A DNA stretch of 64,000 bases from Arcobacter sp. (GTDB lineage Bacteria > Acidobacteriota > Terriglobia > Bryobacterales > Bryobacteraceae), in assembly GCA_020723085.1 (NCBI GenBank), contig DYJN01000008.1, forward strand, positions 1 to 64,000. The letters run 5' to 3'. A program made the position numbers and the translations under genes. The notes below the pieces were generated by a model. That model worked only from the letters and a program-made list of their open reading frames with translations. It had not been told where the DNA came from and made no database searches. Of this stretch, positions 39,399-50,320 are shown one piece after another (positions within the stretch are counted from its first letter, which is position 1; every line of letters starts with the position of its first letter).

Positions 39399-40412
39399 TT
39401 GACCGTCACGCATGGTGGAAACGTGTTCGCCGTCGCACGGGAGCGCGGCTGGGACTGGCGCGAGATCCTGGATCTAAGCGCGAGCATCAACCCGTTGGGG
39501 CCTTCGCCAGCCGTGCGCCCCGCCATCGAAGAGGCGATGGACCGGGTGGCGCTCTACCCGGATCCGCTGCCCGCGCAACTGAGCGAAGCGCTGGCCCGCG
39601 CCTGGGGCGTGGAGCCGGATCAGGTGCTGGTGGGCGGCGGAGGGACGGAGCTGATCCACTTTCTGGCGCGCGCCGGCTGGAACGGCCCTTGCGCGCTGGC
39701 GGCGCCGGTCTGGACGGAGTTCTACCACGCTTTCCCCTATGCCCTGCGCGTGCGCGCCGATGAGCCGGAACGCTGGCCGCAGCGGGGCTTGCTGGTGCTG
39801 AGCCAGCCGGGCAATCCCACAGGCATCCCGGCGCCGGCGGAGGTGGTCAGGCGCGCCATTGCCAGCCGGGAAGGGCCGGTCCTGATTGACGAGAGCTTCA
39901 TCGAGTTCACCCGCCTGGAGTCTGCCGTCGGATGGGTGCAGGACCATCCCAATGTGCTGGTGCTGCGGTCGCTGTCGAAATTCCACGCGCTGCCCGGCCT
40001 GCGCGTGGGGGCCCTGGTGGCTTCGCAGGAATGGATCCGCCGGTTCCGCCGCAAGCGCGAACCGTGGCGGGTGAGCACGCTGGCGGAAGCCGCGGCGCTG
40101 GCCGCAGTGCGCGACACGGCGCACGCGGAACGCTCGCGCCGGATCGTGGAAGAAGAGCGCGCCTGGCTGCTGGCGGCGCTGGATTCAATGGCGGGCCTGC
40201 GCGTGCTGCCGGGCGAGGCCAACTACCTGCTCGCCTACACGGACCGCCCGGCGGCGGAAGTCTGCGAGTGGTTCCTGAACCGCAAGATTCTGCTGCGCAA
40301 CTGCGCCGGGCTGCCTGGAGTGGAGGGAGAGGCGGTGCGGTTTGCCGTGCGCACGCGGCCGGAAAACGAGCGCTTCGTCGCGGCGGCGCGGGAGTTCTTT
40401 TGCGAAAGCTGA
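39399..40412 (+). CDS. cobD: L-threonine-O-3-phosphate decarboxylase CobD-like
   Basis: A 337-residue PLP-dependent fold-I enzyme. 'THGGNVFAVARERG' and 'DLSASINPLGP' at the N-terminus are the CobD signature; the PLP lysine is Lys194 in 'RSLSKFHALPGLRVG', with 'SQPGNPTG' and 'IDESFIEF' in the expected places. CobD makes (R)-1-amino-2-propanol phosphate for the lower-loop attachment in cobalamin. A histidinol-phosphate aminotransferase is the alternative, but context (btuFDC downstream) and the N-terminus favour CobD. It uses a TTG start with GGGGAGG at 39386-39392, 6 nt upstream; the btuF-like TTG overlaps its end. Confidence 0.8.
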   Translation: MTVTHGGNVFAVARERGWDWREILDLSASINPLGPSPAVRPAIEEAMDRVALYPDPLPAQLSEALARAWGVEPDQVLVGGGGTELIHFLARAGWNGPCALAAPVWTEFYHAFPYALRVRADEPERWPQRGLLVLSQPGNPTGIPAPAEVVRRAIASREGPVLIDESFIEFTRLESAVGWVQDHPNVLVLRSLSKFHALPGLRVGALVASQEWIRRFRRKREPWRVSTLAEAAALAAVRDTAHAERSRRIVEEERAWLLAALDSMAGLRVLPGEANYLLAYTDRPAAEVCEWFLNRKILLRNCAGLPGVEGEAVRFAVRTRPENERFVAAAREFFCES

Positions 40413-41251
40413 TTCCGGCCCTGCTGCTATGCGCGGCGGCTCCGGCGGCGCCTCCGCAGCGCATTGTTTCCACGGCGCCGTCGCTGACGGAAACTCTGTT
40501 CGCCCTGGGCCTGGGGCCGCGCGTCGTCGGCGTCACCGAGTTCTGCCGCTACCCGGCCGAGGCGGCGCGGAAGCCGAAGATCGGCACCTTTCTCGAACCG
40601 GATTTCGAGCGGATCCTCGAGCAGCGGCCCGATCTGGTGCTGGTGGTGCGCAACCCCGTGCGCCTGGCCGAACGGCTCTCGCAGCTCGGGCTCCGCGCGG
40701 TGGAGATTCCGCAGGACACGGTGGCGGAGATCCTCGCTTCCATCCGGCAGATCGGCAGGCTCGCGGGCGCCGGGCCGCGCGCCCGTGCGCTGACTGCCTC
40801 GATCGAACGCGATCTCGATGACGTGCGGCGGCGCGCGGAGAAGCTGCCGCGGAAGAAAGTCCTGTTTCTGGTGGGCCGCTCTCCGGGGACCTTGCAGGGC
40901 ATGGTGGGTGTGGGCCCCGGTACGTTCATTGATGAACTGATCCGGATGGCCGGCGGCGTGAATGTCCTGGCTGGATCGCCGATGGCCTATCCGCGGGTCT
41001 CCGTCGAGCAGATTCTGGCCGCGGACCCGGACGTGATCCTCGACATGGGCGACTTCGCGCATCATGAGGGCAAGCCGCTGGAGACGCCGCAACAATTCCG
41101 CTCGGTGTGGGCGCCTTACCGTTCGCTGCGGGCGGTGCGCGGCAATCAGGTGCGGCAGGTGTCGGCTGAGGCGCTGATCCGCCCCGGGCCGCGCGTGGCG
41201 CAAGGGGCGAGGCTTTGCCTGGAGCTGATCCACGGAGCCGCGGGCCGATGA
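40400..41251 (+). CDS. btuF: Cobalamin-type periplasmic substrate-binding protein BtuF-like
   Basis: A 283-residue class III periplasmic binding protein. A short signal ('KLIPALLLCAAAPAAP') precedes 'RIVSTAPSLTETLFALGLGPRVVGVTEFCRYP' in part, the B12/Fe-siderophore binding-protein start. 'PDVILDMGDF' and 'AVRGNQVRQVS' are typical of BtuF. TTG start at 40400 overlaps the cobD stop; its own stop overlaps the btuD start (ATGA). Captures corrinoid in the periplasm and delivers it to BtuCD. Iron-siderophore binding is possible by sequence alone, but cobD and the CobQ-like gene favour corrinoid. Confidence 0.8.
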   Translation: MRKLIPALLLCAAAPAAPPQRIVSTAPSLTETLFALGLGPRVVGVTEFCRYPAEAARKPKIGTFLEPDFERILEQRPDLVLVVRNPVRLAERLSQLGLRAVEIPQDTVAEILASIRQIGRLAGAGPRARALTASIERDLDDVRRRAEKLPRKKVLFLVGRSPGTLQGMVGVGPGTFIDELIRMAGGVNVLAGSPMAYPRVSVEQILAADPDVILDMGDFAHHEGKPLETPQQFRSVWAPYRSLRAVRGNQVRQVSAEALIRPGPRVAQGARLCLELIHGAAGR

Positions 41252-42018
41252 GCGTGAAGTACGAGCTGGATCATGCGGGGATGCGCTACGGCGGCGTGGC
41301 AGTGCTCGAGGGAGTCTCGCTGCGCTTTCGCCGTCCGGAGCTGGTGACGCTGATCGGGCCGAACGGGGCGGGGAAGTCCACCATGCTCGGCATCATGGCC
41401 GGCCTGCGCCGGGGCCACGAAGGCCGCTGCCTGTTGAACGGGCGCGCCGTATCCGAATGGCGCCGGCGCGAATTTGCCCGCCTGGTGGCCTTTGTCCCGC
41501 AATCCCTGCGTTTCGACTTCCCGTTCACTGCGGAGCAGGTGGTGCTGATGGGCCGCACGCCGTATGCGGGAGGGTTCTTCGACAGCCGCGAGGACTGGCT
41601 GGCCGTGCGGGAAGCGATGGAGGAGACCGATGCGCGCGCGCTGGCGCGGCGCGACTTCCGCTCGCTCAGCGGCGGCGAAAGGCAGCGCGTGATGCTGGCC
41701 GCGGCGCTGGCGCAGAAGCCGGCGGCGCTGCTGCTGGACGAGCCGGCGGCGTTTCTCGACCTGCACCATCAACTGATGATCTATGAGCTGCTCCGGCGGC
41801 AGGCCCGCGCGGGGCTGCTGGTGATCGCCGTGACGCACGACGTCAATCTGGCGGCGTCATTCGCCGACCGCGTGGTGGCGCTGCGTGCCGGGCGCGTGGC
41901 GGCGGACGCCGCGCCTTGCGAGGCGCTCTCGGCGGAGCGGATCCGCGAAGTCTTCGGCGTCAGCGCCGAGTGGATCACGCGGCGGGACGGCAGGGCCTGG
42001 ATCGCCTATGGGGATTGA
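41248..42018 (+). CDS. btuD: Cobalamin/iron-complex ABC ATPase BtuD-like
   Basis: A 256-residue ABC ATPase. Walker A 'GPNGAGKST' (37-45), Q-loop 'FVPQSLRF', signature 'LSGGERQRV', Walker B 'ALLLDEPAAFLD' and H-loop 'VTHDVNLAA' are intact. It belongs to the FepC/BtuD/HmuV group energising import of large chelates. Starts at the ATGA overlap with btuF; its last 11 bp overlap the permease start. Forms the BtuC2D2 importer with the next gene product in the inner membrane. Confidence 0.88.
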   Translation: MSVKYELDHAGMRYGGVAVLEGVSLRFRRPELVTLIGPNGAGKSTMLGIMAGLRRGHEGRCLLNGRAVSEWRRREFARLVAFVPQSLRFDFPFTAEQVVLMGRTPYAGGFFDSREDWLAVREAMEETDARALARRDFRSLSGGERQRVMLAAALAQKPAALLLDEPAAFLDLHHQLMIYELLRRQARAGLLVIAVTHDVNLAASFADRVVALRAGRVAADAAPCEALSAERIREVFGVSAEWITRRDGRAWIAYGD

Positions 42019-43012
42019 GCCGCTCACTCCCGGACGGGCCGCGCGCGTGCTGCTGCTGGCGGCGGTGTTCGCCGCGGCGGTGATGCTGGTGACGCCGCTC
42101 ATCGGGCCGGCGCGGATCGATTTCTGGAAGGCCTGGCGCGGCGAGTTTCCCGATGCGCAGATGTTTTTCGGCGTGCGCTGGCCGCGGACGCTGCTGGCCA
42201 TGCTGAGCGGCGGGGCGCTGGCGCTGGCGGGCGTGCTGTTTCAGGCGCTGCTGCGCGATCCGCTGGCCACGCCGTTCACTCTGGGCGTGTCGAGCGGAGC
42301 GAGCCTGGGCGCGGTACTGATGATCGTTTTGGGGGTGCATACGCTGTGGGGCTTGCCTGCGCTGTGGGCCGGCGCCGCCTGCGGGGCGCTGGTTGTGCTC
42401 GTGATCGTGCTCTCCGCCGCGGCCGAAGGGCGGCGCGTGTCCTCCTTTACGTTGCTGCTGGCCGGCGTGGCTGTGAACAGCATCGCTTCGTCGCTGATCA
42501 TGCTGCTGCATAACATGGCCACCGTCGGGCAGAGCTTTGCCATCGTGCACTGGCTGATGGGCAACATTGATCCCGTGCCCGGGGCGACGCTGGCGGGGAT
42601 GGCGCTTGTGGTGCTGCCGGTGTCCATCGCCGCCTGCGCGTTTGCGCGGCATTGGAACCTGATGGCCGTAGGCGAGGAGTGGGCCGCGGCGCGCGGCGCG
42701 TCTCCGCAACGGCTGCTGTTGGGCGGCTATGTGGCGGGCAGCCTGCTGGCGGCGGCGGTGACGGCGGTGACCGGGCCCATCGGATTCGTCGGGCTTGTCG
42801 TGCCGCATGCGCTGCGGCTGCGCATCGGCAGCGATCACCGCGTGCTGCTGCCGGCGTCGTTTCTCGTTGGCGGCGCGTTTCTCACCCTGTGCGACACGGC
42901 GGCGCGCACGCTGTTGAGCGTGGAGCTGCCGGTGAGCGTCGTCACGGCGCTGGTGGGCGGGCCGGTGTTCATTCTTCTGCTCCGCGGACGCCGCCGGAGC
43001 CTGTGGCTCTGA
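42008..43012 (+). CDS. btuC: FecCD-family ABC permease BtuC-like
   Basis: A 334-residue permease with about ten membrane helices. 'RWPRTLLAMLSGGALALAGVLFQALLRDPLATP' in pieces, with 'LATPFTLGVSSGASLGAV', is the FecCD/BtuC signature, and 'GPIGFVGLVVPHALRL' lies in the late coupling segment. Starts within btuD, so cobD-btuF-btuD-btuC read as one translationally coupled operon. No BtuB/TonB receptor gene is in the window. A small hairpin follows the stop. Confidence 0.88.
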   Translation: MGIEPLTPGRAARVLLLAAVFAAAVMLVTPLIGPARIDFWKAWRGEFPDAQMFFGVRWPRTLLAMLSGGALALAGVLFQALLRDPLATPFTLGVSSGASLGAVLMIVLGVHTLWGLPALWAGAACGALVVLVIVLSAAAEGRRVSSFTLLLAGVAVNSIASSLIMLLHNMATVGQSFAIVHWLMGNIDPVPGATLAGMALVVLPVSIAACAFARHWNLMAVGEEWAAARGASPQRLLLGGYVAGSLLAAAVTAVTGPIGFVGLVVPHALRLRIGSDHRVLLPASFLVGGAFLTLCDTAARTLLSVELPVSVVTALVGGPVFILLLRGRRRSLWL

Positions 43013-45350: not shown

Positions 45351-46142
45351 TCATGGACGTTTTCCGGCCAGATGGCGTGCCACCGCTCCCGCTGTGTCCA
45401 GCCAGATGCCGTTGGCCGGATTCCTGGCATAGGCGGCGATGGCCTCGATGGTGGCGGCGTCGACCGACTGGAACTTGCGCGGACCGATGTCGTGGCCGAC
45501 GAAGATGACCCACCGGCCTTCCTTCGCCGCGGCTTCCAGAATGCCGAGCGCCTGCGCCGGGGCCATGTCGTCGAACGGCGTGCCCATGGCGTTGGCCGGA
45601 TCGAAAGCCGAAGGATCGTTGGCCGCTTCGCCCATGTAGCCCCGGCCCAGCAGGAAGCGCTCCGCCACCAGCGGCACGTAGCTGCGCGCCTGCCGGCCGC
45701 GCCCGACGAAACTCTGGCCGCAGGGATAGGCGAAACTGGCCGGCGTGACGCCGAGGAGCTTGCCGATGGCGGCCTGCGCCGCGCCGATGTCCAGCGTAAT
45801 GCGCTCGAGGTCGTAGTCCTCCAGCGCGTTGGCGCGCGAGAACAGGTAGTTGCCCGTGCAGGGGTGCGTGCGCGAATGGTTGCCGATCTCATGGCCGAGC
45901 GCCACGGCCCGCTTCCATCCTTCCAGCCGCTTCTCCACGTTGCCTGGCAGGACGAAGAAGGTGACGCGGATGCCCAGCTTCTCGAGCAGCAGCAGTCCGG
46001 TATCGAGCTGGCTCGGGCGGGCGTCGTCGAATGTCAGGCTGGCCGCGGCGCGCTTGCCCTGCGGCCACACGGACGGGGGCTGCGCGGCGGCATTCACGCA
46101 ACCAAGGATCAGGAGTGCGGGGATCAGGCTTCTCATGGTCAT
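45351..46142 (-). CDS. Exported polysaccharide deacetylase (NodB family)
   Basis: A 263-residue exported carbohydrate esterase family 4 enzyme. Signal peptide 'RSLIPALLILGCVNAAAQ'. Metal and catalytic motifs: 'SLTFDDARPSQ' (DD), 'GNHSRTHPCTG' (His pair of the H(S/T)xxHP motif), and 'FAYPCGQ' with 'FVGHDIG' downstream. It removes N- or O-acetyl groups from chitin-, peptidoglycan- or exopolysaccharide-type polymers in the periplasm. It lies 46 bp downstream of the gmhA-like gene on the same strand and may be the last gene of that transcript. Confidence 0.82.
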   Translation of the reverse strand: MTMRSLIPALLILGCVNAAAQPPSVWPQGKRAAASLTFDDARPSQLDTGLLLLEKLGIRVTFFVLPGNVEKRLEGWKRAVALGHEIGNHSRTHPCTGNYLFSRANALEDYDLERITLDIGAAQAAIGKLLGVTPASFAYPCGQSFVGRGRQARSYVPLVAERFLLGRGYMGEAANDPSAFDPANAMGTPFDDMAPAQALGILEAAAKEGRWVIFVGHDIGPRKFQSVDAATIEAIAAYARNPANGIWLDTAGAVARHLAGKRP

Positions 46143-46188: not shown

Positions 46189-46770
46189 TCAGCAGCCTCC
46201 GCCCGCGCCCTCCGACTCCATGAAGTAATAGGCGATCATGTGGCACACGATCATGTGCCCGTCCTCGATGCGGCCCATGTGCGGATCCGCGACGCGGATC
46301 TCGAGCTGCGCGAGCGGCCCGAGCCTGCCGCCGCCCCGCCCCGTGAGACCGATGGTACGCAGCCCGTTGGCGTTGGCCCACTCCACGGCGCGGAGCACAT
46401 TCGGCGAATTTCCTGACCCGCTCAATGCGATCAGCACATCTCCGGGCTGAGCGAAGTTCTTCAGCGGCTCGACGAAGACCTGTTCGTAGCTGACGTCGTT
46501 CGAGTACGCCGTCAGGGTGGGGAGATTGTCGTTCAGCGCGAGGATGCGGAACCGCTGCGGGCGGCCGTAGGAACAGCCCTTGAGCACGTCGCAGACGAAG
46601 TGCGAGGCGGTGGCGGCGCTGCCGCCGTTGCCGCAAATGAAGATGCCGCGGCCCGAATCGCGCGCCTCGCGCAGCCATTCGATGGCCTGCGCCACGCGGT
46701 CGAGAGGGATCCGCCCGAGCGTCTCCGACAGACGGGCTCGATACTCGGCGATGAACTGATCAGCTTGCAT
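46189..46770 (-). CDS. gmhA: SIS-domain sugar isomerase, GmhA-like
   Basis: A 193-residue SIS-domain protein. 'FICGNGGSAATASHFVCDVLKG' in part is the GmhA/DiaA phosphate loop, 'NDVSYEQVFVEPLKNFAQPGD' (part) and 'LIALSGSGNSPNVLRA' are the second phosphate-binding segment, and 'DPHMGRIEDGHMIVCHMIAYYF' ends in the His/Glu region. GmhA turns sedoheptulose 7-phosphate into D-glycero-D-manno-heptose 7-phosphate. Last of a four-gene operon with an RfaE1-like kinase, which supports a heptose role. DiaA (replication) is the alternative. ATG 46770 lies 7 nt after the ROK stop. Confidence 0.75.
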   Translation of the reverse strand: MQADQFIAEYRARLSETLGRIPLDRVAQAIEWLREARDSGRGIFICGNGGSAATASHFVCDVLKGCSYGRPQRFRILALNDNLPTLTAYSNDVSYEQVFVEPLKNFAQPGDVLIALSGSGNSPNVLRAVEWANANGLRTIGLTGRGGGRLGPLAQLEIRVADPHMGRIEDGHMIVCHMIAYYFMESEGAGGGC

Positions 46771-46777
46771 TCTCTTC

Positions 46778-47635
46778 TTATTGTCCCAGAGCTTCGCGGC
46801 CGAGTTCGTAAGCGCCCCACAGGACGCTGTCGTCGCCGAGCGAGGCAGGAACGACATCGATCCTGGCGCGGGACCACGGAGTGATCTGCCGGCGCAGCTC
46901 GGCGCGGAGAGGCGCGAACAGCGCGTCTCCCGCCTTGCTGATGCCGCCTCCGATGACGATGCGGGCCGGATTCAGCAGCATGATGGCGGCTTTGAGCCCG
47001 CGGGCGAGGTCGACGACGTAGTCCTCGACAAACGCCGCATCCCGCATCAGCTCCTGCGCCGTCCGCCCGTAGTCGCGCTCGAGCCAGAGGCCGCAGCACA
47101 TCCGCTCGAAGCAGCCGTGAGAACCGCAAAGGCACGCCGGACCGTCGGGACGGATGTTCAGATGCCCGATCTCTCCGGCGTAGGAATCCGCGCCCCGGTA
47201 GACGCCGGATTCGAGCAGGATGCCGCCGCCGATGCCGGTGGACAGGGTCATGTAGAACAGCGGGCGGAATCCGCGTCCCGCGCCGTGCATCCCTTCGCCG
47301 AGCGCGCCGGCATTGGCGTCGTTGTCCATCAGCACCGGCACGCCGAATTCCGCGCGCAGCCACGCGGGCAGGTCGAAGCCCTGCCAGCCGCCGACGTGCG
47401 TGGAGAGCACCACCTGCTGCGACGGGAAGTCCACAGGTCCGCCGAAGCCCACGCCGATGGCGGTGAACTCTTCCTCCGCCCGCCAGGCGAGGCCGATCCG
47501 GCGCAACTGATCGAGCATCCACTCGCGCCCGCCCTCGCGGTCGGTGCGGCGCGACTCGCGCCGCGCCATGCGGCCATCGCGGAACAGCGCGGCGCTGAAT
47601 TTGGTGCCGCCGATGTCGATGGCGAAAATGCTCAT
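46778..47635 (-). CDS. ROK-family sugar kinase
   Basis: A 285-residue ROK (repressor/ORF/kinase) family protein without a DNA-binding domain, so an enzyme. ATP loop 'FAIDIGGTKFSAALF', catalytic Asp in 'LMDNDANAGALGE', ROK zinc motif 'CLCGSHGCFE' preceded by 'GEIGHLNI', and late 'IVIGGGISKAGD'. Glucokinase, fructokinase or N-acetylmannosamine kinase activity is typical. In this operon, flanked by an RfaE1-like kinase and a GmhA-like isomerase, it may act on a heptose or hexose precursor. Its start overlaps the end of the PfkB gene (ATGA). Confidence 0.82.
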   Translation of the reverse strand: MSIFAIDIGGTKFSAALFRDGRMARRESRRTDREGGREWMLDQLRRIGLAWRAEEEFTAIGVGFGGPVDFPSQQVVLSTHVGGWQGFDLPAWLRAEFGVPVLMDNDANAGALGEGMHGAGRGFRPLFYMTLSTGIGGGILLESGVYRGADSYAGEIGHLNIRPDGPACLCGSHGCFERMCCGLWLERDYGRTAQELMRDAAFVEDYVVDLARGLKAAIMLLNPARIVIGGGISKAGDALFAPLRAELRRQITPWSRARIDVVPASLGDDSVLWGAYELGREALGQ

Positions 47636-48621
47636 GGCTGCGCCGTCCTCCCGGCTGCCGCGAGAACTTCCTCCGGCGAAGCCGTGCCCGTGCCGGGCTT
47701 CATGATCGTGATCGAAGCCGCCAGATGGCCGAACAGCGCCGCTTCTCTGGGCGGGGCGCCCGCCCGCAGGGCGAGGGCGGCGCCCGCGGAAAAGCTGTCG
47801 CCCGCGCCGCAGATGTCGACCGGGTTTTCGACTCGCTGCGTGGGCACGCGCTCCACTGCGCGAGCCTCGACCAGCGTGATGCCGTCGCCTCCGTGCGTGA
47901 TCACAACGAGCGGCGCGGCGGTGGCGCGGCGCAGTTGCTCATAGTCCGGCTCCGGCAGCCCGAGCCTTCCGCACGCCTCGCGCGCCTCGCGCTCGTTGGG
48001 TTTCAGGACGACGCCGCGGAACTGCTCGATGTGCATGCGCGAGTCGACCCAGATGAGCAGCCCGGGGCGGCGCAGGGCCAGCAGTTCGAGCTTCTCCCGC
48101 ACCCGCGGCGTGACCACTGCCCCCGATGCCGTCTCCATCTGGTCTGATACGAGGATCAGGTCGAATTCCGCCGCAGCCGCCTCCAGCCGCCTCAGAATCT
48201 CGTCTTCCACCTCGCGCGGCGGCGGGAACGTGACGAAGTCGACGCGGCCCAGGTCTTCCACCTCCGTATAAGCGTTGATGAGCTTCGTGTAGGTGAAGGT
48301 CTGTCCGGGCGCGGTCACCAGCAGGGAATCGTCGATGCCGCGGCGGGCGAGCGCGGCGCGCAATTCGTAGCCGTGCCCGTCGCCGCCGATGGAGCCGAGC
48401 ACCGCCACGCGCCCGCAGCCGAGAGCGGAGAGATTGGACGCCACCGTGCCGCCGGCGCCGGGCGTGCATTCCGTGCCGACCACGGCGATGCGGTCGATCC
48501 CGGTTTCCCGCGAAGGTTCGGTGAGCCGCGGATCGTAACGGCACCAGCGGTCCAGGCAGATGTCGCCGGCCACCAGCGCGCGCAGCCTTGGAATGGCGGC
48601 GAGGATTTCAGCCGGAGTCAT
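47632..48621 (-). CDS. RfaE1/HldE-kinase-like PfkB family sugar kinase
   Basis: A 329-residue PfkB-family kinase. N-terminal 'LVAGDICLDRW', sugar-binding 'GAGGTVASNLSALGCGRVAVLGSIG' in part, 'VLKPNEREA', ATP/anion-hole 'NPVDICGAGDSFSAG' with the catalytic Asp, and the end 'KPGTGTAS'. These match the kinase half of HldE/RfaE, which phosphorylates D-glycero-D-manno-heptose 7-phosphate at C1. The cytidylyl/adenylyltransferase half is absent; a separate gene for it lies at 58888-59367. ATGA overlaps with both neighbours show a coupled operon. Ribokinase-like activity on another sugar cannot be excluded. Confidence 0.72.
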   Translation of the reverse strand: MTPAEILAAIPRLRALVAGDICLDRWCRYDPRLTEPSRETGIDRIAVVGTECTPGAGGTVASNLSALGCGRVAVLGSIGGDGHGYELRAALARRGIDDSLLVTAPGQTFTYTKLINAYTEVEDLGRVDFVTFPPPREVEDEILRRLEAAAAEFDLILVSDQMETASGAVVTPRVREKLELLALRRPGLLIWVDSRMHIEQFRGVVLKPNEREAREACGRLGLPEPDYEQLRRATAAPLVVITHGGDGITLVEARAVERVPTQRVENPVDICGAGDSFSAGAALALRAGAPPREAALFGHLAASITIMKPGTGTASPEEVLAAAGRTAQP

Positions 48622-49601
48622 GAAGAGGGCGCCTCCATCGCCCGCAGGAACGCGACGCGCAGCGCGGGAAACGTGGCGCGGTGGTCCCCGCAGAAATAGA
48701 AGCTCTCGCCGCCGTCGGCGACCGTGCGCACGAGCATGGTCTTGTGGGGGCGGAAATAGTAGCCGGGATCGGTCTTCGGCAGCTCGCGGCGGAAATCCCC
48801 GCGGATCGGAACCAGATCGAACACCGCTGTCGTGAAATGCCGGATGACGCGCCCCTCCTGATGGGCTGCGTTGCGCGCCATGGCCAGCGCCTTCAGATAC
48901 ACTTCCGGCCCCATGATGGCGGAGCCGAACGACAGCAGCACGCCTCCTTCGAGCCCCTCCACGACACGGGCGAAGATGAGGAAGTCGCGGTAGCTCGCCT
49001 CGCCCAGAGCGGCGCCATGGCAGTTCGGGTGCTCGTGCAGGATGTCGTAGCCGATGCCCGCGTGGACGGTGACGGGCACGCCGCAGCGGTACGCGGCAGC
49101 GAGGACGCTCCAATCACGCCAGGGGAAGTCCGATTCGAGAATGCGCCTGCCCGCGTGCTCTCCCAGCCCCTCGCCGGAAGCCGCCGCATCGCGGATCCAC
49201 TCGTTCAGCTCGCCCGTCTCGCGCCACAGCCCGAACTGCCCTTCGCGGATGTAGCGCGCCACGCTCTCCGTGGTGGCGCCGATCCGGGCGAGTTCGTAAT
49301 CGTGGATCATTCCGGCGCCGTTCATGGCGATCACGGAGATCGCGCCGCGTTCCAGCAGGTCGATGATGTGCCGGTTCGTGCCGGCGCGCAACAGATGGGC
49401 GCCCATCATCAGGATGCGAGCCGAGCCGCGTCGCTGCGCCGCCGCCCAGCGCTGCGCCACCGCGGGCAGGTCCGGGTGCTCGAAGGGCGGCGCGGGATCG
49501 TCGAGCCGCAGCCAGTGCTCGATGTGCAGATCGTGGACGCGGTCCGCGAGCGGCAGGATCCTCAGCCGCGAGCGGTCGAAGAGCGGGTAACGCGAGGGCA
49601 T
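48618..49601 (-). CDS. Deoxyhypusine-synthase-like protein
   Basis: A 327-residue protein that starts the operon. By eye it follows the deoxyhypusine synthase (DHS) fold: 'ILMMGAHLLRAGTNRHIIDLLERGAISVIAMNGAGMIHDYE' in pieces corresponds to the early NAD-binding segment, 'CGVPVTVHAGIGYDILHEHPN' to the active-site entrance, and 'GGVLLSFGSAIMGPEVYLKALAMARN' to the later helix. The end 'DPGYYFRPHKTMLVRTV' and 'FCGDHRATFPALR' lacks the 'SWGKI' catalytic lysine context of true DHS. Bacteria have no eIF5A, so a different NAD-dependent reaction or a sugar-linked role is likely. Coupled to the PfkB gene by ATGA. Confidence 0.5.
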   Translation of the reverse strand: MPSRYPLFDRSRLRILPLADRVHDLHIEHWLRLDDPAPPFEHPDLPAVAQRWAAAQRRGSARILMMGAHLLRAGTNRHIIDLLERGAISVIAMNGAGMIHDYELARIGATTESVARYIREGQFGLWRETGELNEWIRDAAASGEGLGEHAGRRILESDFPWRDWSVLAAAYRCGVPVTVHAGIGYDILHEHPNCHGAALGEASYRDFLIFARVVEGLEGGVLLSFGSAIMGPEVYLKALAMARNAAHQEGRVIRHFTTAVFDLVPIRGDFRRELPKTDPGYYFRPHKTMLVRTVADGGESFYFCGDHRATFPALRVAFLRAMEAPSS

Positions 49602-49651: not shown

Positions 49652-50320
49652 TCAGAGCCAGTATTCGAAACGCCCGGAGGAGAGCACCCACGCGCAGAGA
49701 CAGGCGTTCGTGACCGCGTGAGCGAGGATCAGGTCGCCGAGATTCCGCGTCCGCACCATCCAGTAGTTGTAGGCGATGCCCGCCAGCAGTCCAACGTCCC
49801 AGTACGCGCCGTGCTCCAGCGCGAACAGGACAGCCGTGATCCAGAAGGCGCGGGCGTGCCAGGCGCCCAGGGGGACGCGTTCGAAGTCGGGATTTTCGAT
49901 CCACCGCATCATCCATCCGCGCCAGAACAGCTCTTCCACGACGGGGACGAGAACGACGGCGCGGGTGGTGCGCAATGCGAGGACGAGCGGGTCGCGGAGC
50001 GCCCCGGGCTGGAGGCTGGCCGTGGCCTCTCCGAACAGGGAATTGCTGAACAGCCAGTGGGCGCGCCAGCCGGGGAAAACCGTGTCAGGAGCGATCCACA
50101 TCACGAAGACCGCGATGCCGAAGGCAGCCGAGACCCACGGAGAGGATGCCTGGAACCTGAGCAGCCGGCGGCTGAACAGCCAGACGGCGGCCAGACCGGA
50201 AAACAGCCAGACGGCCAGTTCGGCCCGCGGCGCCAGCCCGAGCTTCGGCAGAACAGCCAGGCAGAGGACGAAGTACAGGAACGGCGCCACCCAGGGCGCC
50301 GCCGGGTGCCTCAGCAGCAT
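49652..50320 (-). CDS. CPBP-family intramembrane protease (exosortase-associated type)
   Basis: A 222-residue membrane protein with about seven hydrophobic segments. The CPBP/Abi catalytic motifs are visible: 'VPVVEELFWRGWMMRW' (Glu129-Glu130, Arg134), 'VLFALEHGAYWDVGLLAGI' and 'ILAHAVTNACL'. The arrangement resembles the CAAX-protease-related proteins found beside exosortases in PEP-CTERM-type loci. It may cleave membrane-embedded protein substrates. A TPR lipoprotein gene ends 4 nt upstream on the same strand, consistent with one transcript. No exosortase gene is in the window. Confidence 0.72.
   Translation of the reverse strand: MLLRHPAAPWVAPFLYFVLCLAVLPKLGLAPRAELAVWLFSGLAAVWLFSRRLLRFQASSPWVSAAFGIAVFVMWIAPDTVFPGWRAHWLFSNSLFGEATASLQPGALRDPLVLALRTTRAVVLVPVVEELFWRGWMMRWIENPDFERVPLGAWHARAFWITAVLFALEHGAYWDVGLLAGIAYNYWMVRTRNLGDLILAHAVTNACLCAWVLSSGRFEYWL

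Follow-up and report, generated by a model that had tools for sequence, protein, structure and literature searches.

Most Gram-negative lipopolysaccharides have ADP-heptose as their core sugar, and the compound also acts as an innate-immune signal. The pathway to ADP-L-glycero-D-manno-heptose consists of GmhA, HldE, GmhB and HldD, and the epimerase HldD is treated as a standard component. Clusters for GDP-D-glycero-D-manno-heptose contain the GHMP kinase HddA, an SIS isomerase, a HAD-IIIA protein and a nucleotidyltransferase. Here, a four-gene operon is described from a 64,000-nucleotide stretch of Bryobacteraceae DNA (GenBank assembly GCA_020723085.1, contig DYJN01000008.1, positions 1–64,000), the whole of which is called the window below. 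Its first gene, P0001, encodes a GSU2086-family protein (NF052581), and this family name carries no function. It can be proposed, tentatively, that the operon is a copy of a self-contained heptose module, in which P0001 fills the slot of HldD as an NAD-dependent epimerase.

In Geobacter sulfurreducens, GSU2086 lies between GSU2085 (hldE) and GSU2087 (gmhA), and transposon insertions in hldE, GSU2086 and gmhA behave alike on electrodes, with log2 ratios of −3.1, −3.2 and −3.7, respectively (PMC5585712). P0001 passes the cut-off of the GSU2086 family and is likewise accompanied by genes for a heptose kinase and an isomerase. It belongs to subfamily B of the family, however, and its partners are a divergent kinase and isomerase, a HAD phosphatase and sometimes a ROK kinase. 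In what follows, DHSL is the shorthand for a GSU2086-family protein, and P0001 is the DHSL of the window operon.

Organization and Conservation of the Module

All four genes are on the minus strand. P0001 (48618–49601) encodes a protein with a fold resembling deoxyhypusine synthase (DHS) and ornithine cyclodeaminase (OCD). P0002 (47632–48621) encodes a PfkB-family kinase (PF00294, 109 bits), a divergent RfaE1/HldE kinase domain without the adenylyltransferase domain. P0003 (46778–47635) encodes a ROK-family sugar kinase, and P0004 (46189–46770) a GmhA-like phosphoheptose isomerase of the SIS type. Read from the sequence, ATGA overlaps connect P0001 with P0002 (48621–48618) and P0002 with P0003 (47635–47632), and the gap between P0003 and P0004 is 7 nt. 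These genes, their order, the overlaps and the gap had all been reported in an earlier note on this DNA and are borne out, and the single transcription unit that it proposed is supported by the gene spacing.

With each species represented by one genome, the scan yielded 80 DHSL loci, essentially all from Bryobacterales-type Acidobacteriota. Neighbours were counted only at loci with enough flanking sequence, and the denominators (76, 79 and 60) therefore differ. The PfkB kinase adjoins DHSL in 74 of 76 loci, and a HAD hydrolase is upstream of DHSL in 68 of 79. Of 60 loci, 39 have GmhA and 31 have ROK. The exact order DHSL-PfkB-ROK-GmhA recurs in 25 of the 60 testable Bryobacterales loci, so the four-gene order is far beyond chance. 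The ROK kinase, which the earlier note took as a part of the system, is an optional, lineage-specific member of the module. Among 24 genomes without GmhA next to DHSL, a relative of P0004 is encoded elsewhere in 22 (in 21 at E ≤ 1e-40), which indicates that the module parts stay together in the genome even if unlinked.

The window operon and those of its closest relatives lack an adjacent HAD gene. Its place is held by a gene for a CPBP intramembrane protease (49652–50320, minus strand), located 50 nt upstream of P0001. A HAD phosphatase with 70% identity is encoded on another contig of the same genome (C23:37014-37805, locus L150). The earlier note saw no phosphatase of the GmhB type nearby; this is right for the operon itself, but the HAD phosphatase is usual in relatives and is encoded on C23. 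The C23 gene stands alone, beside FAD-dependent oxidoreductase-like and cyclopropane-fatty-acid-synthase-like genes.

The genes flanking the module, judged by eye from the sequence, differ among loci and include cysteine desulfurase, tetratricopeptide repeat (TPR), flagellar motor and acyltransferase genes. Being variable, they are of no use as a functional clue. One locus, L008 (JACZKS010000147.1), is titled Rhodospirillales; it is Bryobacterales-like and clusters with Bryobacterales, and probably comes from a mislabelled or contaminated assembly.

Identity of P0001

P0001 matches NF052581 with 373 bits (cut-off 250) over positions 2–299 of 301. Against the Pfam DHS family (PF01916) it scores 15.7 bits, below the gathering cut-off of 27, and the match covers only residues 53–102. 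An AlphaFold2 model of P0001, built from 42 sequences from the window and the fetched loci, has a mean predicted local distance difference test score of 89.9. The best solved structures found with Foldseek are a LOR/SDH-type ornithine cyclodeaminase (3c2q), ArgZ/AgrE and DHS, with template modelling scores (TM-scores) of about 0.5. These relatives by fold are NAD enzymes, and one of the matched ArgZ/AgrE structures has bound NAD+. The GSU2086-family profile matches the same OCD, AgrE and DHS proteins by sequence, in the N-terminal part of the profile. A sequence search of the PDB with P0001 returned only chance matches to major histocompatibility complex proteins.

P0001 thus shares the overall fold class with DHS, LOR/SDH-type OCD and the C-terminal NAD domain of ArgZ-AgrE, and an N-terminal motif region ending with HD.E is common to P0001, AgrE and OCD. 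In contrast, its sequence scores are under the cut-offs of these families, its gene company is different, and the DHS catalytic-lysine motif WGK is seen nowhere in the GSU2086 family. The same genome encodes a separate DHS-like PF01916 protein, which has a TWGK motif, on contig C143 and an OCD-like protein on C93. Because of the scores below cut-off and the separate protein on C143, DHS was rejected as the identity of P0001, which is a remote relative of the NAD-dependent DHS/OCD enzymes. The remote relation is what stands of the earlier label "DHS-fold protein"; the family is GSU2086, not DHS.

Partner Enzymes

At the family level, Pfam scores agree with the earlier labels of PfkB/RfaE1-like kinase, ROK kinase and SIS/GmhA-like isomerase. 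P0003 is a clear ROK member (PF00480, 187 bits; cut-off 22.9) with the sequence CLCGSHGCFE, corresponding to the ROK motif CxCGxxGCxE. The motifs CLCGxxGC and DNDAN are kept in the ROK members, and CGAGDSF is kept in the relatives of P0002. P0002 scores 131 bits against the HldE kinase domain (TIGR02198, cut-off 345), and P0004 scores 118 bits against GmhA (TIGR00441, cut-off 209). Since neither comes close to the curated cut-off of its canonical counterpart, P0002 and P0004 appear to be a divergent set parallel to those of the ADP-heptose route. The earlier assignment of the pair to that route is therefore appropriate for the heptose type but not for the canonical enzymes.

In the alignment, P0004 has the metal-site pattern H..D / E..H, where GmhA has H..E / Q..H: both histidines are kept, Glu is replaced by Asp, and Gln by Glu. 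The pattern of P0004 is common to plasmid SIS proteins beside GHMP kinase, epimerase and HAD-IIIA genes, and this resemblance to GDP-heptose-type clusters supports a heptose role for P0004. The window module differs from GDP-D-glycero-D-manno-heptose clusters in having PfkB rather than GHMP, no GDP-transferase, and DHSL in place of the SDR (short-chain dehydrogenase/reductase) epimerase.

Two Subfamilies and a Second Set of Heptose Genes

In the tree, subfamily B, which includes P0001, is split from subfamily A with 100/99 support. Subfamily B is distinguished by an insertion that precedes the RPHKT motif, in which K287 is invariant; the residue at that position is not lysine in subfamily A. 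The window genome also contains a subfamily A gene, C86:77231-78037 (L084), whose product is about 40% identical to P0001 and has neither the insertion nor the lysine. The neighbours of this gene encode a CPBP protease on one side and a UvrA-like protein on the other. A long-branch third type of DHSL, with the arrangement HAD-DHSL-PfkB, is seen in genome G202 of family f19.

Other heptose genes are found in the window genome. C86 encodes a near-canonical heptose kinase (342 bits against the TIGR02198 cut-off of 345). An RfaE2-like match has E=1.4e-50, although it is not among the listed rows over cut-off, and a GmhB-like match on C52 has 121.8 bits, under 149.6. A TIGR02197 search found no HldD over the cut-off of 274.6 bits in this genome, the best match having E=4.9e-35. 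P0004 is the sole GmhA-like protein. Given these genes and the subfamily A DHSL, the window operon looks like a second, paralogous heptose set, and P0004 perhaps serves both sets.

The locus resembles the ADP-L-glycero-D-manno-heptose pathway in its GmhA-type isomerase and RfaE1-type kinase and, among relatives, in the phosphatase and in fusions of adenylyltransferase and kinase. It differs in the absence of an HldD over cut-off from the genome, in the phosphatase, which is of the HAD_2 type and not GmhB, and in the extra DHSL and ROK.

The Module in Other Lineages

A Chloroflexota plasmid carries the order HAD-DHSL-PfkB-GmhA at 59% identity and is the sole carrier of the HAD among 72,556 plasmids. 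A Solidesulfovibrio plasmid has a fused adenylyltransferase-kinase, DHSL and SIS at 56% identity, and its locus adjoins pseudaminic/sialic-acid-type glycan genes. Genome G005, from another family of Acidobacteriota, holds two DHSL loci. One (L136) pairs a subfamily A gene with GmhA; the other (L131), whose DHSL is of subfamily B, has the order fused adenylyltransferase-kinase, GmhA, DHSL. Split transketolase genes are located near fused-kinase DHSL loci (L120:2189-3957 and L131:7923-9676), and possibly supply a seven-carbon ketose. A plasmid search for new phyla with a subfamily A protein returned the same two records only, and a search of phage records gave no match.

The order is thus not unique to the window genome. 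The conserved system across distant lineages that the earlier note envisaged is found in Bryobacterales, other Acidobacteriota, the Chloroflexota and Solidesulfovibrio plasmids and, from the literature, Geobacter. The link of the GSU2086 family to heptose is well supported. A literature search found a single mention of GSU2086 and no paper on a DHS-like protein with heptose.

Mutual Exclusion of the GSU2086 Family and HldD

NF052581 and TIGR02197 were scored against their curated cut-offs in 297 Acidobacteriota genomes; a part of the presence/absence and GmhA-distance statistics given here was transcribed by hand from tables. NF052581 is over cut-off in 97 genomes and HldD in 76, and a wide score gap lies beneath the HldD cut-off. 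The two coincide in only 3 genomes, where 24.8 would be expected (Fisher p=1e-11). The exclusion is also seen at the genus level (p=7e-4), and in family f20 the two are found in 8 versus 12 genomes with zero overlap (p=4e-5).

A strong GmhA, defined as a match at E ≤ 1e-40, is present in 199 genomes, which are divided into 80 with DHSL, 70 with HldD, 49 with neither and 0 with both. The strong GmhA is within 2 kb of DHSL in 18 genomes and of HldD in 5. Most of these genomes also have matches of the GmhB and RfaE2 types, which indicates that the slot complemented by DHSL is that of HldD, not of GmhB. A replacement of GmhB by DHSL was also considered and is not favoured, as most genomes with DHSL also encode a GmhB-like protein.

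At G280:C19:130699-131694 and G188:C21:107113-108093, matches to GmhA and RfaE2 are in one open frame of about 341–344 aa. This suggests GmhA-RfaE2 fusions in family f20.

Possible Function and Alternatives

The module consists of a HAD phosphatase, which is on another contig here, DHSL, an RfaE1-like PfkB kinase, an optional ROK kinase and a GmhA-like isomerase. P0004 would convert sedoheptulose 7-phosphate to a heptose 7-phosphate, P0002 would phosphorylate C1, and the HAD enzyme would dephosphorylate position 7. Activation of the product could fall to a stand-alone RfaE2-like adenylyltransferase encoded at another site in the genome. P0001 may oxidise and re-reduce a heptose carbon with a bound NAD, changing the stereochemistry, a step that corresponds to the slot of HldD in other bacteria. 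Epimerisation is proposed because DHS- and OCD-type enzymes shuttle hydride via NAD in the way that HldD, an SDR epimerase, does via a cofactor of its own. The ROK kinase might re-phosphorylate or salvage free heptose in one lineage. The substrates of the enzymes, the use of NAD and the epimerase reaction are what we infer, as is the role of ROK. With some hesitation, the GSU2086 family can be considered as a non-orthologous replacement of HldD in many Acidobacteriota and in Geobacter-type bacteria, and the window operon as a second, paralogous heptose pathway with its own epimerase. The earlier suggestion of a modified heptose or other nucleotide-sugar pathway went in the right direction, although its DHS label and its canonical enzymes do not stand.

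Several observations weigh against an epimerase in the slot of HldD. The position of the DHS catalytic lysine varies across the GSU2086 family, and the fold matches of P0001 reach no higher than the TM-scores given above. Tested by taxonomic family, the exclusion loses significance (p=0.19), so that lineage effects are incompletely removed, and three genomes of family f19 (G023, G045 and G202) have both HldD and GSU2086-family genes. The exclusion data come mostly from subfamily A, while P0001 belongs to subfamily B and its genome has both. The Geobacter evidence comes from the literature, and its transposon phenotypes could be polar effects. It is a doubtful but real possibility that P0001 acts earlier or in a side step, with sedoheptulose 7-phosphate or heptose 7-phosphate as its substrate, or makes an unusual heptose by reductive amination or oxidation; HldD would then be excluded because the pathways yield different heptoses. 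The two loci of G005 are consistent with each heptose locus having its own DHSL. The chemistry may differ between subfamilies, given that K287 is found only in B, and P0002 and P0004 deviate from the canonical enzymes at substrate-proximal motifs. Nevertheless, the complementarity of subfamily A and HldD amid GmhA, RfaE2-type and GmhB-type genes is explained most simply as the replacement of a missing step.

The proposed biosynthetic role of the module is also weakened by the Bryobacterales loci, where the module showed no adenylyltransferase, other nucleotidyltransferase or glycosyltransferase and has variable flanks, and by the Chloroflexota plasmid, where the module follows an apparent operon for sugar uptake and catabolism (a GntR regulator, a sugar isomerase, Gfo/Idh oxidoreductases, deoC and a sugar ABC transporter). 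Together with the presence of two kinases, these features would fit a catabolic module, in which the phosphatase, the NAD enzyme, the kinases and the isomerase degrade a scavenged seven-carbon or unusual sugar. This is unlikely, however: the Solidesulfovibrio and G005 loci have the fused adenylyltransferase-kinase, the former in a setting of glycan biosynthesis, the Bryobacterales module has no transporter, the Geobacter homologue is placed with hldE and gmhA, and the plasmid relatives of P0004 include SIS genes of heptose capsule/exopolysaccharide-type clusters. The remote sequence similarity and the fold could also point to a polyamine enzyme of the deoxyhypusine/homospermidine-synthase type that came into a sugar operon by chance, but this is close to refuted. 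P0001 is under every cut-off for DHS, homospermidine and related enzymes, the TWGK protein on C143 matches its family with an hhalign probability of just 7%, and the linkage with sugar enzymes is tight across phyla.

Surroundings of the Operon

The run of genes on the same strand exceeds the four genes of the earlier note. A TPR protein gene (52721–50325, minus strand) and the CPBP protease gene closely precede P0001, and a polysaccharide deacetylase gene (45351–46142, minus strand) follows P0004. Since the former two share the strand and lie close before P0001, they may be included in a transcript of more than four genes. The TPR and CPBP pair (52721–49652) also precedes HAD-DHSL in several relatives, for example L008 and L015. 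Further away, at 39399–43012, genes for a CobD/HisC-like aminotransferase, a periplasmic binding protein, an ABC ATPase and an ABC permease resemble a cobalamin/iron-complex uptake cluster.

Implications

If DHSL is indeed the epimerase, a DHS-type fold, so far associated with polyamine and ornithine chemistry, does the job of HldD where HldD is lacking, and a hole in many annotated pathways would be filled. An unnamed NCBI family would gain a function, and sugar epimerisation would be added to the DHS fold. The prediction could be tested with GSU2086 in the genetically tractable G. sulfurreducens. In Bryobacterales, the presence of a parallel module suggests that there is another heptose, as yet uncharacterised.

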